Origin: Kaistella sp.
GTDB lineage: Bacteria; Bacteroidota; Bacteroidia; Flavobacteriales; Weeksellaceae
Length of the DNA stretch: 64,000 bases
Direction of reading: 5' to 3'
NCBI GenBank assembly: GCA_019459085.1
Contig: JAIBEW010000027.1
Coordinates: 124,001 to 188,000, forward strand
The notes beneath the pieces were generated by a model. It had not been told where the DNA came from and made no database searches. It saw nothing but the letters and a program-made list of their open reading frames with translations. The position numbers were made by a program, and so were the translations under genes. Positions 6,784 through 11,442 of this stretch are shown in pieces (positions within the stretch are counted from its first letter, which is position 1; every line of letters begins with the position of its first letter).

Positions 6784-7758
6784 TCAGCGGTAAAAAGCTA
6801 AATTTTTAAGGATTGCCTCTGATTTCAGTTCAGTTTCCTGCCACTCTTTTTCAGTGGAACTTAGGGCAGTAATGCCGCCTCCAACGTGAATCAGCACCTC
6901 ACTTTTTCTGATTTCGGCGCATCTTAAATTCACGAAATACTGAATGTAGTCATCAGTTTCCACTTGAATGTAGCCCGCATACAGTCCGCGTGGATATTTT
7001 TCGAAATTTTCGATGGCATTTTTGCAGAATTCTTTTGGGATTCCACACACCGCTGGAGTGGGATGCAGTTCTGAAATAAGTTTTTCTAAATTTTCCTGAT
7101 CAATCTTCGCCTTGAAATCTGTTCGCAGATGTTTGATGTTTCCGGAAATGTGATCGTATGTTTCTGAAATTTCAGTGTGAGCGCTGTAATTTTCGAGCAC
7201 CATTTTAATGTAAGCAGAAACAGGTTTCTGCTCTTCTCTTTCTTTTTCGCTCCAGAATTCATTTACAGGAAGTGTTCCGGCCAGGCTCATCGTTTCGAAT
7301 CGAGAAGTTTTTTTACTGAATTTTCCCAAAACTTCAGAAAACGCGCCGATCCAGCATTTTCCTTCTTTCACAAAAACGTAAGCAAAAGCATTTGGATAAG
7401 ATTCGGTAAGATTCTGAAAGGTTGTAGCTAAATCAGGAGTTTGTGAATCTGATTTCAGAATCTTGATTCTCGAGATGACCAGTTTCGAAAGACTGTTCTC
7501 TTTTATAAAATCAATAACTTTCCTCAGTTTTGCTTCGTATTCAGTTTGACTTTCTTCTGCAAAATATTTAGCTTCATTTAACTGGAGATCAGCAGAACTC
7601 ATCATTCTACTGAATTCCATAAAGTCTGCTTCTTTTATTTTTCCTTTAAAGTCAAGCTGTTCCAAGTTGTCAAATGAAAAAAAACTGACGAAATTTCCGG
7701 GAGAATTTTCATCAGTTGTGTAAACATTTTCGCTAAAGGGAAATTTAAAGAAAAGCAT
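6784..7758 (-). CDS. chorismate-binding enzyme, isochorismate synthase type (MenF/EntC-like)
   Basis: 324 residues, shorter at the N-terminus than E. coli MenF (about 430), as is usual for Flavobacteriia. The C-terminal two thirds carry the chorismate-binding fold, with 'LHPTPAVCGIPKEF' (the P-A-V-x-G-x-P motif), 'YPRGLYAGYIQ' and the terminal glycine-rich 'HVGGGITALSSTEKEW' plus 'ETELKSEAIL', which supply Mg and substrate ligands. It should convert chorismate to isochorismate, the entry to menaquinone, the usual respiratory quinone of this group. It is the last gene of a minus-strand run after an acyltransferase and a hotdog thioesterase (24-base gap). The thioesterase could serve the same pathway. 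Isochorismate synthase is more likely than anthranilate or aminodeoxychorismate synthase, because the motif set is of the MenF type. Confidence 0.85.
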   Translation of the reverse strand: MLFFKFPFSENVYTTDENSPGNFVSFFSFDNLEQLDFKGKIKEADFMEFSRMMSSADLQLNEAKYFAEESQTEYEAKLRKVIDFIKENSLSKLVISRIKILKSDSQTPDLATTFQNLTESYPNAFAYVFVKEGKCWIGAFSEVLGKFSKKTSRFETMSLAGTLPVNEFWSEKEREEQKPVSAYIKMVLENYSAHTEISETYDHISGNIKHLRTDFKAKIDQENLEKLISELHPTPAVCGIPKEFCKNAIENFEKYPRGLYAGYIQVETDDYIQYFVNLRCAEIRKSEVLIHVGGGITALSSTEKEWQETELKSEAILKNLAFYR

Positions 7759-7782: not shown

Positions 7783-8211
7783 TTATTTAGGCCGTGGAAT
7801 AATATTATTCGTCATCGTCGTATGGTTAATCAGACCACCTTTTTCGTCTCGGATTTCTATTTCGGAAACGTGCATCGTATTTCCTCTTCTGATGAATCTT
7901 GCTGTTCCGGTCACCATCCCTTCGCGTTTGCTTTTCAGGTGGTTCGAGTTGATGTTTGTTCCTACAGGAACCACTTTTTCAGAATCCACGCTGATATAGG
8001 AAAGGCATGAACCCAAAGTTTCGGCCAAAACACAGCTGGCTCCGCCGTGCAGAATTCCGTAAGGCTGATGAACTTTCGGCGTTACAGGCATGGTTGCCGT
8101 CAGCGTTTCCTCCGTAACATCAGTAAAAATGATTTCGAGCGTTTTTCCGAGGGTTTCTTCGCCCCAGTTATTCAGCATGTCAAGAATTTCTCTTTTTTTT
8201 GAATTATCCAT
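7783..8211 (-). CDS. PaaI-family hotdog-fold acyl-CoA thioesterase
   Basis: 142 residues. Single hotdog domain with the hallmark 'QPYGILHGGASCVLAETLGS' (HGG motif and the following acidic Glu) and 'VGTNINSNHLKS', as in PaaI/MenI/YdiI thioesterases. It sits 18 bases after the acyltransferase and 24 bases before the isochorismate-synthase-type gene. A role as 1,4-dihydroxy-2-naphthoyl-CoA hydrolase in menaquinone synthesis (MenI-like) is an attractive inference from that neighbour. The sequence alone supports only a thioesterase acting on an aromatic or other acyl-CoA. Confidence 0.85.
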   Translation of the reverse strand: MDNSKKREILDMLNNWGEETLGKTLEIIFTDVTEETLTATMPVTPKVHQPYGILHGGASCVLAETLGSCLSYISVDSEKVVPVGTNINSNHLKSKREGMVTGTARFIRRGNTMHVSEIEIRDEKGGLINHTTMTNNIIPRPK

Positions 8212-8229: not shown

Positions 8230-8796
8230 TTAATAAATTTTAGGATTCCAGTTTTCAGGATTTTTTGGGGTAATTTTTTTGTAATATTCCTGCATTTCCT
8301 CCATAATACTTTCAAAACTGCGGGTTTCCAGATCGTGAACGGTGATGATTTTGCCCAAATAAATGATTTTGTGTTTAAAGTCCCCGGCAGCGACCACAAT
8401 CGGGACTTTTGCTGCCAAAGCCATATGATAGAAACCTTTCCGCCATTTCGGAACCCAGCTTCTTGTACCTTCAGGAGTAATTACCAGACTGAAACTGTCT
8501 TTTTTGAATTCATCTGCAACAAATTTAACAAGGTCATTTTTCTGACTTCTGTCGATGCCGATGCCGCCTAAAGCTTTGACGACCGGACCATACCACGCTT
8601 TGGTGTGTTCATCTTTTATAATGATCTTCAACGGTTTATCCAGTGCCCAGTACGCCAGATTTCCCAGGAGATATTCCTGATTAGAGGTGTGCGGTGCCAC
8701 GACCAGAATACAGCGGTCCAGATTATTCACATCGCCCTCCAGTACAATCTTCCAGCCGACAATCCACATCATCAATTTCCCGATCAGTTTCTTCAT
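8230..8796 (-). CDS. 1-acylglycerol-3-phosphate acyltransferase-like protein (PlsC family)
   Basis: 188 residues, a compact LPLAT domain. Motif I reads 'APHTSNQEYL', with His and Glu in an H-x4-E variant of the usual H-x4-D. The later 'VITPEGTRSWVPKWRKGFY' contains the EGTR motif III. One N-terminal hydrophobic segment anchors it in the membrane. Members of this short subfamily are annotated as acyltransferases or glycerol acyltransferases of phospholipid or lipid A remodelling. It is the first long gene of the acyltransferase-thioesterase-isochorismate-synthase run. The 22 bases between its ATG and the upstream hairpin at 8819-8845 leave little room for a promoter, so its transcription may depend on read-through of that hairpin. 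Confidence 0.85.
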   Translation of the reverse strand: MKKLIGKLMMWIVGWKIVLEGDVNNLDRCILVVAPHTSNQEYLLGNLAYWALDKPLKIIIKDEHTKAWYGPVVKALGGIGIDRSQKNDLVKFVADEFKKDSFSLVITPEGTRSWVPKWRKGFYHMALAAKVPIVVAAGDFKHKIIYLGKIITVHDLETRSFESIMEEMQEYYKKITPKNPENWNPKIY

Positions 8797-8813: not shown

Positions 8814-8845
8814 CAAAAAAGTATAACCAAAGTTTGGTTATACTT
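8814..8845 (-). terminator. rho-independent terminator of the micro-ORF transcript
   Basis: A perfect inverted repeat (AAGTATAACCAAA, one base, TTTGGTTATACTT) at 8819-8845. Read on the minus strand it folds into at least ten base pairs followed directly by a run of six T, the classic intrinsic terminator. There is no T-run on the plus side. It lies between the 20-codon ORF and the acyltransferase gene, so it either ends a short transcript or acts as an attenuator. Confidence 0.8.
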
Positions 8846-8872
8846 ACAAATATATCGAATTAATAATTGTTC

Positions 8873-8935
8873 TTAAAATAAACTGCTTACGAAATCAATG
8901 ACTTTTATTGCGATTTCAAATACAAACTGTACCAT
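8873..8935 (-). CDS. candidate 20-residue amphipathic peptide
   Basis: ATG at 8935 (minus) to TAA at 8873-8875, encoding MVQFVFEIAIKVIDFVSSLF. Polar residues fall at positions 3, 7, 11, 14, 17 and 18, with hydrophobic residues between, so a helix would have a narrow polar stripe on a greasy body (net charge about -1). A -7-like TAATTTG lies 36 bases upstream on the same strand and a strong terminator begins 27 bases after the stop, giving a predicted transcript of roughly 150 bases. The unit sits in a 328-base gap between pspC and the acyltransferase gene. Nothing known was recognised. The options are a type I toxin-like or membrane-active peptide, or a leader peptide of the downstream operon. 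Translation is not proven. Confidence 0.5.
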   Translation of the reverse strand: MVQFVFEIAIKVIDFVSSLF

Positions 8936-8971
8936 GATTTTTTTGTTTTAAGGGTTAATTTATTAAATTTT

Positions 8972-8978
8972 CAAATTA
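8972..8978 (-). promoter_or_regulatory. -7-like box TAATTTG before the micro-ORF
   Basis: Reads TTAATTTG on the minus strand, one mismatch from TAnnTTTG and the same as the box before mvaD. The predicted start of transcription is near 8966, about 30 bases before the micro-ORF ATG. No TTG at the ideal 19-base spacing. Confidence 0.4.
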
Positions 8979-9067
8979 ACAGTACGAAATTAACAATAAT
9001 TTTCAATATAACCGCGAAGCTTATGTTAATTTTTATGTAAAGTTTAGTTTTCAATGAGGAACAAGCG

Positions 9068-9124: not shown

Positions 9125-10822
9125 TTATTTGGTTTTAATGGAAATTTCTTTTTTACCGTTTTTAATGGAGATGTCTACATCCTGAAGTTTGTCGAAATCT
9201 AGATCCATTGAATCAATCACTTTGTCGGCGGCCGCTTTCGGCATTTTCTTACCGTTGATGATCACACTGTCTTTGTCATTGGAGTTGTACTGAATAGTGG
9301 AACCGTTGATCTTGATCTTATCATTTTCGATTACTACATCGTTGCTGGCATCCTCGTCGTCTGTTCCGTCTCCGTTTAAATCTCCTTCAAGCTGAAGTCC
9401 ATGTTCTTTGACTTTAAAAACTTTTGTGTCCTGAGGAACTACGAGTTCGTAAGTCACATTGTAATCACGGAAACGCTGCTGATAAGGATATTTCACGAAA
9501 TTTGGAAGCAGGATTTTATTATCCTGAATTTCTACCGGAACGGTGAGCTGAACAGGAACATTATATCCTTTTCCTTCTTTTTTAACAATAAGGTAAGGAG
9601 CAGTGATATCCGCTTTTCTCGTTACTTCCACGTAAGGATAGTCTTCCTCGTACACCATTTTTTTGTCGGAGAAAATATCATCGTCATAAGCCGTAAAGTT
9701 CTGCGGAATGTTAATCTGTTTCACATCAACATACAAACTATCTGACGTCGTATTGATAGCAATATTTTCTGTTTCTTCTTTGTCACCTTTGTAAATCATG
9801 TCTTTTTTAGCCATGTTGATTCCGAAATAAGTAGCAAAAGCCAACAGAATAAGAAAAAGAGCTCCTACAACATATCCAACATTTCTCAGCTGTGTTTTCG
9901 GCGAAATTAGTTTTATGGCCAGCAGACTGAAAAGCAGGGCAGGTATTAAAGTGCCGATCAACATCATGGCGTAGAGAACGTTATTCATTCCGTCATCTTC
10001 AAAAAGGAAATTGAATTCATTCATTCCCGGGAAATCAGGATTTCCGAAAAGTCCGAAGATAAAGAATGCTCCAATAATGCTTCCCAAAGCCATTAAGGCA
10101 AAAATACTTCCTAAGACATAACGAATTACATTCCAGATTCCGCTTCCTGCATTGTTGATATAGGGTTTGTTTTCTGTATAAATTTCTCCGACTCTTTGCG
10201 TGGATTCATTCGCAAACTGAACCAGTTTGTTGGATTCACTTTTTAAATTGTCGAAATTCATGGGCTTTCCCTTCATTTTCAGAAAATCTGTGGCCGTTTC
10301 TGCCTTAGGCAGAACGATCCACAGAATAATATAAATGAGAACGATCAGCGAAGTGGAGATGGCGGCGGTAAAAATGCCCAAAACTGCTATTCCAAGCCAA
10401 ATGGCACGCATTGCGGTAATGTCCATTCCAGTATAATGCGCTAAACCAGCACAAACTCCGGCGATTTTCTGTCTTTCCGGATCGCGGAAGAGCTGTTTGG
10501 CGCCGCTGTAGTTTGCGGAAGTACGTCCGTTTTTTGTATTTTTTTCGGAAAAATAAGCTTCTTCCTGTTCTTCAATCACTTCGGGTTTCCCGATCTGGGC
10601 AATAACTCTTTCCACATCGATATCGTTGATGACTTCACGTTTTCCTAAAGTATCCTTGAAGATTTCAACCATTCTGATCTCGATATCGTGCATCACTTCA
10701 TCCGCTTCTGAAGCATCCAGAGAGCTTCTGAGTGCAGCAAGATAATCGCTTAACTTGATATATGCATGTTCCTCAATCGTGAAGGAGAAACCGGCAAGTC
10801 CTATTGAGAGTGTTTTGTTCAT
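9125..10822 (-). CDS. PspC domain membrane protein with long C-terminal stress-sensor-like region
   Basis: 565 residues. Residues 1-75 form a short helical domain with an acidic 'SEADEVMHDIEIRMVEIFKDTLG'. The PspC domain follows at about residues 106-172 ('LFRDPERQKIAGVCAGLAHYTGMD' plus a hydrophobic helix). Further membrane helices lie near 235-262, 285-305 and 318-340, and the C-terminal 220 residues are extracytoplasmic and beta-rich, with an acidic Asp-rich loop. The start follows the padR stop by 5 bases, so padR and this gene form an operon. PspC proteins respond to envelope stress. The fusion of the PspC domain to a large C-terminal region is common in Bacteroidota. The PadR neighbour is the likely regulator. 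Confidence 0.88.
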   Translation of the reverse strand: MNKTLSIGLAGFSFTIEEHAYIKLSDYLAALRSSLDASEADEVMHDIEIRMVEIFKDTLGKREVINDIDVERVIAQIGKPEVIEEQEEAYFSEKNTKNGRTSANYSGAKQLFRDPERQKIAGVCAGLAHYTGMDITAMRAIWLGIAVLGIFTAAISTSLIVLIYIILWIVLPKAETATDFLKMKGKPMNFDNLKSESNKLVQFANESTQRVGEIYTENKPYINNAGSGIWNVIRYVLGSIFALMALGSIIGAFFIFGLFGNPDFPGMNEFNFLFEDDGMNNVLYAMMLIGTLIPALLFSLLAIKLISPKTQLRNVGYVVGALFLILLAFATYFGINMAKKDMIYKGDKEETENIAINTTSDSLYVDVKQINIPQNFTAYDDDIFSDKKMVYEEDYPYVEVTRKADITAPYLIVKKEGKGYNVPVQLTVPVEIQDNKILLPNFVKYPYQQRFRDYNVTYELVVPQDTKVFKVKEHGLQLEGDLNGDGTDDEDASNDVVIENDKIKINGSTIQYNSNDKDSVIINGKKMPKAAADKVIDSMDLDFDKLQDVDISIKNGKKEISIKTK

Positions 10823-10827
10823 TGTAT

Positions 10828-11163
10828 TTAGTTTATAGTTTTTAGAGTAATTTGATTCACGGAATCGGTAAGATCGTTCCAGGTGTTCAGAAGTTCGGTG
10901 AGAAACAGTTTACCTTTTTCGGTGATCTGGTAATATTTTCTCGGTGGGCCTCCTGTGGATTCTTCCCATCGGTAGGAAAGAAATTCGCCGTTTTTCAATC
11001 TGGTGAGGAGCGGGTAGAGCGTTCCTTCCACCACATCCAGTTTTCCTTTTTTCAGTTCGTCGATCAAATCAGAAACATACATTTCTCTTTTGTCAATCAG
11101 ACTCAAAATACAGAATTCCAGAATTCCTTTTCGCATTTGCGCTTTGGTGTTTTCTGTGTTCAT
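10828..11163 (-). CDS. PadR-family transcriptional regulator
   Basis: 111 residues, the size of the short PadR-s1 subfamily. The winged helix-turn-helix shows 'KGILEFCILSLIDKREMYVSDLIDELKKGKLDVVEGTLYPLLTRLKNGEFLSYRWEESTGGPPRKYYQITEKGK', which carries the conserved 'GTLYPLL.RL' and 'GPPRKYY..T..G' signatures. A short dimerisation helix follows. It lies 5 bases upstream of the PspC gene, a recurrent pairing in Bacteroidota, and is presumably an autoregulating repressor of this operon. The inverted repeat at 11210-11229, just downstream of the predicted transcription start, is a candidate operator. Confidence 0.93.
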   Translation of the reverse strand: MNTENTKAQMRKGILEFCILSLIDKREMYVSDLIDELKKGKLDVVEGTLYPLLTRLKNGEFLSYRWEESTGGPPRKYYQITEKGKLFLTELLNTWNDLTDSVNQITLKTIN

Positions 11164-11235: not shown

Positions 11236-11267
11236 CAAAGATATGTAAATAAATTAGTATTATGCAA
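11236..11267 (-). promoter_or_regulatory. padR-pspC promoter
   Basis: Minus-strand -7 box TATCTTTG (11236-11243, exact TAnnTTTG) and a TTG (11265-11267) 21 bases upstream, close to the usual spacing of about 19. The predicted leader is about 65 bases. Confidence 0.6.
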
Positions 11268-11442
11268 TACAAAGTAGTGAAATAATTGCAATAAAAGATT
11301 TAAATTACTGATTTTCAATAGTATTAATTTATCATGTCATTTCTATAACTGACTTATTCTTCAATTTTTTTCAAAATTATAAAACAATTTAGATTTCGTG
11401 TCTTAAGTATAATTTCTTATATTAGAGATAAACGCACATAAT

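Follow-up and report, generated by a model that had tools for sequence, protein, structure and literature searches.

Between a pspC gene and the first gene of an acyltransferase operon, the minus strand of the stretch of DNA analysed here (the window, 64,000 nucleotides of Kaistella sp., a genus assigned to Weeksellaceae by NCBI) carries an open reading frame of 20 codons. A 20-residue peptide lies below the usual length limit of gene finders. We asked whether this frame is a gene and, if so, which of its neighbours its product might serve. An earlier note on this DNA had proposed either a membrane-active peptide of the type I toxin kind or a leader peptide controlling the operon downstream. 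The features to which we refer are as follows, in the order of the minus strand.

11257..11270, strand not given: palindrome in the padR promoter, likely the PadR operator (GTATTGCATAATAC in padR promoters of the genus)
10828..11163, minus: padR-family regulator (Pfam PF03551)
9125..10822, minus: pspC, with a PspC domain and LiaI-LiaF-TM_PspC by Pfam, and HAAS and Toastrack matches below the cut-off
8985..8992, minus: -7-like promoter box TAATTTCG of the predicted peptide transcript (TAnnTT[TC]G throughout the aligned rows)
8873..8935, minus: 20-codon peptide gene, MVQFVFEIAIKVIDFVSSLF plus stop (frame kept in the genus, low pN/pS, profile matches)
8847..8854, minus: TATATTTG, predicted -7 box of the acyltransferase operon, directly 5' of the hairpin (box, stem and T-run upstream of acyltransferases)
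8819..8845, minus: inverted repeat and T-run, predicted intrinsic terminator of the peptide transcript (paired changes in the stems of relatives)
8230..8796, minus: PlsC-like acyltransferase, first gene of the downstream operon (Pfam PF01553)
7783..8211, minus: 4HBT thioesterase (Pfam PF03061)
6784..7758, minus: isochorismate-synthase-like chorismate-binding enzyme (Pfam PF00425; best NCBIfam match isochor_syn, below its cut-off)

A 20-codon gene conserved across the genus

The frame opens with an ATG at 8935-8933 and its stop ends at 8873, as the earlier note had read it, which places it between pspC and the acyltransferase gene. A DNA search of 60 genomes matched all 36 genomes of the genus and none of the other 24; the match in G004 was weak and at another place, and its frame was found intact on separate reading. 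The 20-codon frame is unbroken in all 36 (35 aligned rows plus G004), and frameshifts and disrupted stops, looked for in the same genomes, were not found. The bias toward synonymous change that the earlier note had suggested looking for is present, with a pN/pS of 0.19 over the 30 distinct coding sequences from the 35 rows. When 14 of the 30 distinct sequences were used for a column-shuffle control, their pN/pS was 0.197 against a shuffle mean of 0.85, and none of 300 shuffles was equally low. Across the 30 sequences, variable sites numbered 13, 5, and 18 at the first, second, and third codon positions, respectively (20 sites each). Within the genus alignment the peptide frame is conserved at the DNA level above the start of the adjacent enzyme gene, with a mean pairwise identity of 0.83 versus 0.75 over the initial 60 bases of the acyltransferase gene. 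Because the frame is kept and is under purifying selection across the genus, it is, judged by this conservation, a protein-coding micro-gene.

An A occupies position -3 relative to the ATG in 29 of 35 rows and position -11 in every row, and an A at -3 favours initiation in F. johnsoniae (PMC6847099); the peptide would be translated from this A-rich start. Searches of the peptide against Pfam, NCBIfam, PADLOC, and PDB sequences returned no match above threshold and a single sub-threshold Pfam hit (E 0.5), and the four Rfam matches each fell far under their gathering scores. Among open-licence papers on small proteins, sRNAs, PspC in this group, and Bacteroidetes type I toxins, the titles and abstract openings listed make no mention of the peptide.

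Promoter-like boxes and a terminator-like hairpin

Upstream of the peptide, the TAATTTG that had been named as its promoter box (8978-8972) is not the conserved element, which is instead TAATTTCG (8992-8985). All 35 aligned genus rows contain a TAnnTT[TC]G box that ends 46-50 bases 5' of the ATG in 34 of them and 31 bases in the other, with a mean pairwise identity of 0.96 versus 0.55 for the remainder of the 5' leader. The consensus TAnnTTTG is quoted in PMC7366714, and a TTG at -33 is not consistently present in the genus rows. The peptide in this window would be transcribed alone, as an RNA of approximately 165 bases running from near 8980 to near 8814.

The inverted repeat begins 27 bases after the peptide stop and spans 8845-8819, with 13 and 13 bases around a single base, corresponding as RNA to at most 12 pairs and a 3-base loop; after its T-run, 22 bases remain to the acyltransferase ATG at 8796. 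All of these elements are present as first described, and the hairpin has a mean pairwise identity of 0.87 in the genus alignment. Its conservation among relatives was likewise borne out, as each of the first ten pairs shows changes on both sides among 19 stems, which were hand-picked from 49 distinct stems and aligned by the outermost pair. Such paired changes on both sides of the stem identify RNA pairing as the conserved feature. A role for the hairpin as a DNA operator was rejected, given that G-U pairs and wholly different stems still pair as RNA.

Between the peptide stop and the hairpin lies a second perfect TAnnTTTG box, TATATTTG, which the earlier note did not mention. Upstream of acyltransferase genes, such a box together with a fully paired stem and a T-run was found in 132 of 167 stretches (79 distinct, with repeated loci of the same genomes counted in), while 35 fell below the criterion; the stem begins 0-1 base after the box in 124 of the 132. 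Since the hairpin abuts the box, the predicted start of the acyltransferase mRNA falls within the stem. This placement of a terminator-like hairpin 0-1 base past a TAnnTTTG box (8854-8819 in the window) was seen in most of the family loci read. Reading by eye identified the hairpin without the peptide in G075 and G091 (loci L137 and L147), the peptide without the hairpin in G072 (L146), and the box without the hairpin in L138 and L141; peptide, hairpin, and box are therefore three separable parts. Most simply, the hairpin would terminate the upstream transcript while overlapping the acyltransferase promoter at its start region. The possibility that the hairpin is an essential part of that promoter was rejected on account of the loci with the box alone.

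These observations bear on the proposal that the frame encodes a leader peptide and that its hairpin lets phenylalanine attenuate the acyltransferase-thioesterase-isochorismate-synthase operon. Although its position, the hairpin with its T-run, and the four Phe of this species' peptide would suit such a leader, the Phe count varies from 0 to 6 across 45 members of the peptide family, the operon has a TAnnTTTG box of its own, and hairpin and peptide occur without each other. Moreover, the peptide sequence is itself conserved with the polar stripe described below, and six genomes carry the peptide at pspC with the acyltransferase elsewhere or further off. The variable Phe count and the separate promoter-like box led us to reject attenuation by Phe codons, which we regard as scarcely credible.

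A predicted amphipathic helix and its spread in Weeksellaceae

We then considered the peptide itself, for which polar residues 3, 7, 11, 14, and 18 had been predicted to line one face of a helix. This stripe is kept across the 45 members, with a polar residue at position 3 in 98%, position 7 in 93%, position 11 in 84%, position 14 in 93%, and position 18 in 100%; position 17 is polar in 67%, and the remaining positions are nearly always hydrophobic. The window's peptide fills the stripe with Q3, E7, K11, D14, and S18, and the same stripe recurs in members only 20-40% identical to it. Because these polar positions recur in diverged members, the peptide is likely an amphipathic helix whose polar stripe is narrow and whose hydrophobic face is wide. 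The hydrophobic moment has a permutation rank below 0.05 in 45/45 members, and the net charge lies between -2 and 0 in all of them. Composition and periodicity together place the peptide, by prediction, on the cell (inner) membrane. A secreted or signalling peptide released from the cell would likewise be short and conserved, but no export signal or processing site was seen by eye and the amphipathic pattern suits a membrane surface, making this reading very improbable.

To describe how widely the peptide occurs we used three profiles. Profile A3, which includes diverged members chosen by synteny, gave matches at E<=0.01 in 214 of 246 Weeksellaceae genomes, representing 26 of 33 genera; its E-values are partly circular for g2, g22, g23, g29, g34, g36, g41, g45, and g47 because A3 contains members from diverged genera. 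The profile missed g38 even though two g38 frames are in it, and a similar frame stands at the pspC end in both g38 genomes examined. A weak candidate, MMQMLFKMVLEAMNIVFDIFS (G074), was excluded from A3, and MIYTILEILSRWIDWCWSLF (G036) was included though weak. Profile A1, restricted to the genus, Halpernia, and one paralogue, reached 225/246 at the loose cut of E<=1, chance hits included. Beyond the family, a search of 395 genomes of the order (family members among them) with profile A2 gave only three weak partial matches outside Weeksellaceae (E 0.03-0.05), and the three matches among 295 genomes of the class all lie within Weeksellaceae. Most genomes carry one match, with two or more in 12 of the 214.

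Paralogues also occur. Of the four loci read for a second group (MVTLIIEIAVKIIDFITQFFA and like), two (G107 and G110) place it 3' of a DUF218/SanA-like envelope gene, the SanA model match for this DUF218 gene being below cut-off. Members of this group (L088, L167, L168, and L170) carry Thr as residue 3 and are closely preceded by a TAnnTTTG-like box, and the genes 3' of them differ, encoding a small membrane protein, a histidine kinase, or a short soluble protein. Separately, one genome carries four copies of the peptide (G229:C1 and G229:C2; L090, L091, and L092), three of them on a 27.8-kb contig; the three stretches compared are 99.98-100% identical, so the copies reflect either a recent duplication event or an artefact of assembly.

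Type I toxins such as Ibs and TisB are short hydrophobic peptides made from a small transcript of their own. The earlier note's suggestion of such a toxin, or of another self-acting membrane peptide whose excess would depolarise the membrane and which RNA structure or an antisense RNA would hold in check, fits the length, hydrophobicity, and amphipathicity of the peptide, its promoter-like box and terminator-like hairpin, which would yield a similarly small transcript, and the existence of paralogues. It fits poorly, however, with a peptide that is mostly present as a single match per genome and is syntenic among the loci listed. The search for an antisense RNA that the earlier note had recommended found a -7 box (CAAAnnTA) on the opposite strand in only 3 of 35 rows, a search that covered this promoter type alone and found no conserved antisense promoter. 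Plasmid and phage collections gave no match, which is a weak test with a 20-residue query, and the net charge of -2 to 0 also speaks against a toxin. We consider a toxin quite unlikely.

Linkage to pspC and a candidate role in envelope stress

Most of the loci listed share the order padR-pspC-peptide-acyltransferase-thioesterase-isochorismate synthase, and as the peptide sits between both neighbours, linkage to pspC and linkage to the acyltransferase are indistinguishable there. The position next to the acyltransferase allows that the peptide is a small subunit or membrane anchor of that enzyme and not of PspC. Evidence that separates the two comes from nine genomes in which pspC and the acyltransferase lie apart: six keep the peptide beside pspC alone, two have it beside each gene, and one has it beside the acyltransferase alone, so that linkage to pspC is seen independently of the other neighbours. 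The six with the peptide at pspC and none seen at the acyltransferase (none within 420 bases 5' of the gene) are G060, where approximately 520 kb separate the two genes, G061, G111, G076, and G099, where they are on different contigs, and G117, where the separation is only about 0.65 kb. In G005 and G008, which have the peptide at both places, the pspC-side paralogue has a different hairpin, no TATATTTG box, and no acyltransferase in the stretch fetched.

Other genomes favour the acyltransferase as the partner. G072 has a peptide-like frame 7 bases 5' of the acyltransferase with no hairpin, and its pspC lies elsewhere with no peptide seen there; in the g28 loci read, the peptide remains next to the acyltransferase, with one or two genes intervening between it and pspC. 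At least eight genomes carry pspC with no peptide seen there (G086, G106, G120 (g48), G091, G075, G090, G073, and G072), absence meaning that a 14-40-codon frame with a matching start was not seen between -200 and +900 bases, and none was found at the pspC fragment of the incomplete genome G063. In G074, which gave no match to pspC, the acyltransferase is accompanied by a weak candidate. Against these stand the six genomes above, the two pspC-side paralogues, and the peptide's own terminator-like hairpin together with the separate box of the acyltransferase, and we judge a partnership with the acyltransferase unlikely.

In several genera the peptide is joined to pspC more closely. In the genomes read from g29, g41, and g47, and in one g38 genome of two, the peptide's ATG is embedded in the 3' end of pspC in a different frame (pspC ending in ...KDDTDSININYRNN over peptide MIQILLTLTTEIIKTIVDFFI, for example), and in the other g38 genome the peptide begins 1 base past the pspC stop. 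Where the two overlap, the padR-pspC transcript would also carry the peptide. Such an overlap is a case in which a tiny open reading frame is superimposed on a longer gene in another frame.

We also assessed whether the regulator itself could link the peptide to this system. The palindrome GTATTGCATAATAC occurs in 15 of 20 padR promoters of the genus, three of these having lost the first one or two bases to the extraction window, and variants of one or two bases occur in the other five. Within the window it is found at padR only and not 5' of the peptide, and PadR co-regulation of the peptide is therefore not supported here. A near copy of the whole padR promoter (G000:C18:55812-55828; L228, ~1495-1560) lies approximately 160 bases 5' of an outer-membrane beta-barrel gene (PF14905), suggesting that the PadR regulon likely includes an outer-membrane protein.

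HAAS-PadR systems of theme (i) place padR beside a PspC/Toastrack-type HAAS protein (PMC11237479). The window's padR-pspC pair matches this architecture, with padR next to a multidomain transmembrane protein that has PspC, LiaI-LiaF-TM, and sub-cut-off HAAS and Toastrack matches. Those systems are described as having two components, HAAS and PadR, and the terms small peptide, small protein, and micropeptide do not occur in the main text of that paper. Our preferred, though tentative, reading, to which we give slightly less than an even chance, is that the peptide is an undescribed membrane micropeptide and the predicted third component of a PadR/HAAS-PspC envelope-stress module, acting on PspC signalling or on the strained membrane. 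The earlier note's interpretation thus stands as regards an amphipathic or hydrophobic micropeptide with a promoter-like box and a terminator-like hairpin, whereas the leader does not, and the link to padR-pspC had been missed.

On the preferred reading, the helix would lie on the cytoplasmic leaflet of the inner membrane via its broad hydrophobic face, while the polar stripe might contact PspC or other copies of the peptide, partner binding being guesswork. There it could tune signalling from PspC to PadR or stabilise strained membrane, much as the amphipathic helix of PspA does elsewhere. In distant genera, where the peptide is at or over the 3' end of pspC, it would be made together with PspC, and in Chryseobacterium-like genera it has a promoter-like box of its own. 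The N-terminal amphipathic helix of PspA is alike in being a helix tied to PspC-type envelope stress; here, in contrast, the predicted helix is a free peptide with no coiled coil, and PspA (PF04012) was found in 1 of 19 genomes of the genus and not in the other 18, while a control search detected it in 9 of 14 well-known genomes. Micropeptides of the membrane surface such as SpoVM are stand-alone short amphipathic helices encoded by their own small genes, which the present peptide resembles, although they belong to another phylum and have a different role.

A broader proposal, which we hold to be rather unlikely as a whole, is that in Weeksellaceae a free 20-residue amphipathic helix replaces PspA, acting as sensor or effector of membrane strain in a PadR/PspC system that lacks it, having originated as an out-of-frame overlap on the pspC tail, later acquired its own promoter, and then been copied beside a SanA-like envelope gene. 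The peptide family reaches most of the searched genomes of a family that includes Chryseobacterium. If the peptide serves PspC, it would show how envelope stress is controlled in bacteria that lack PspA, and a single start-codon mutation would open the little-studied HAAS-PspC/PadR module to testing.
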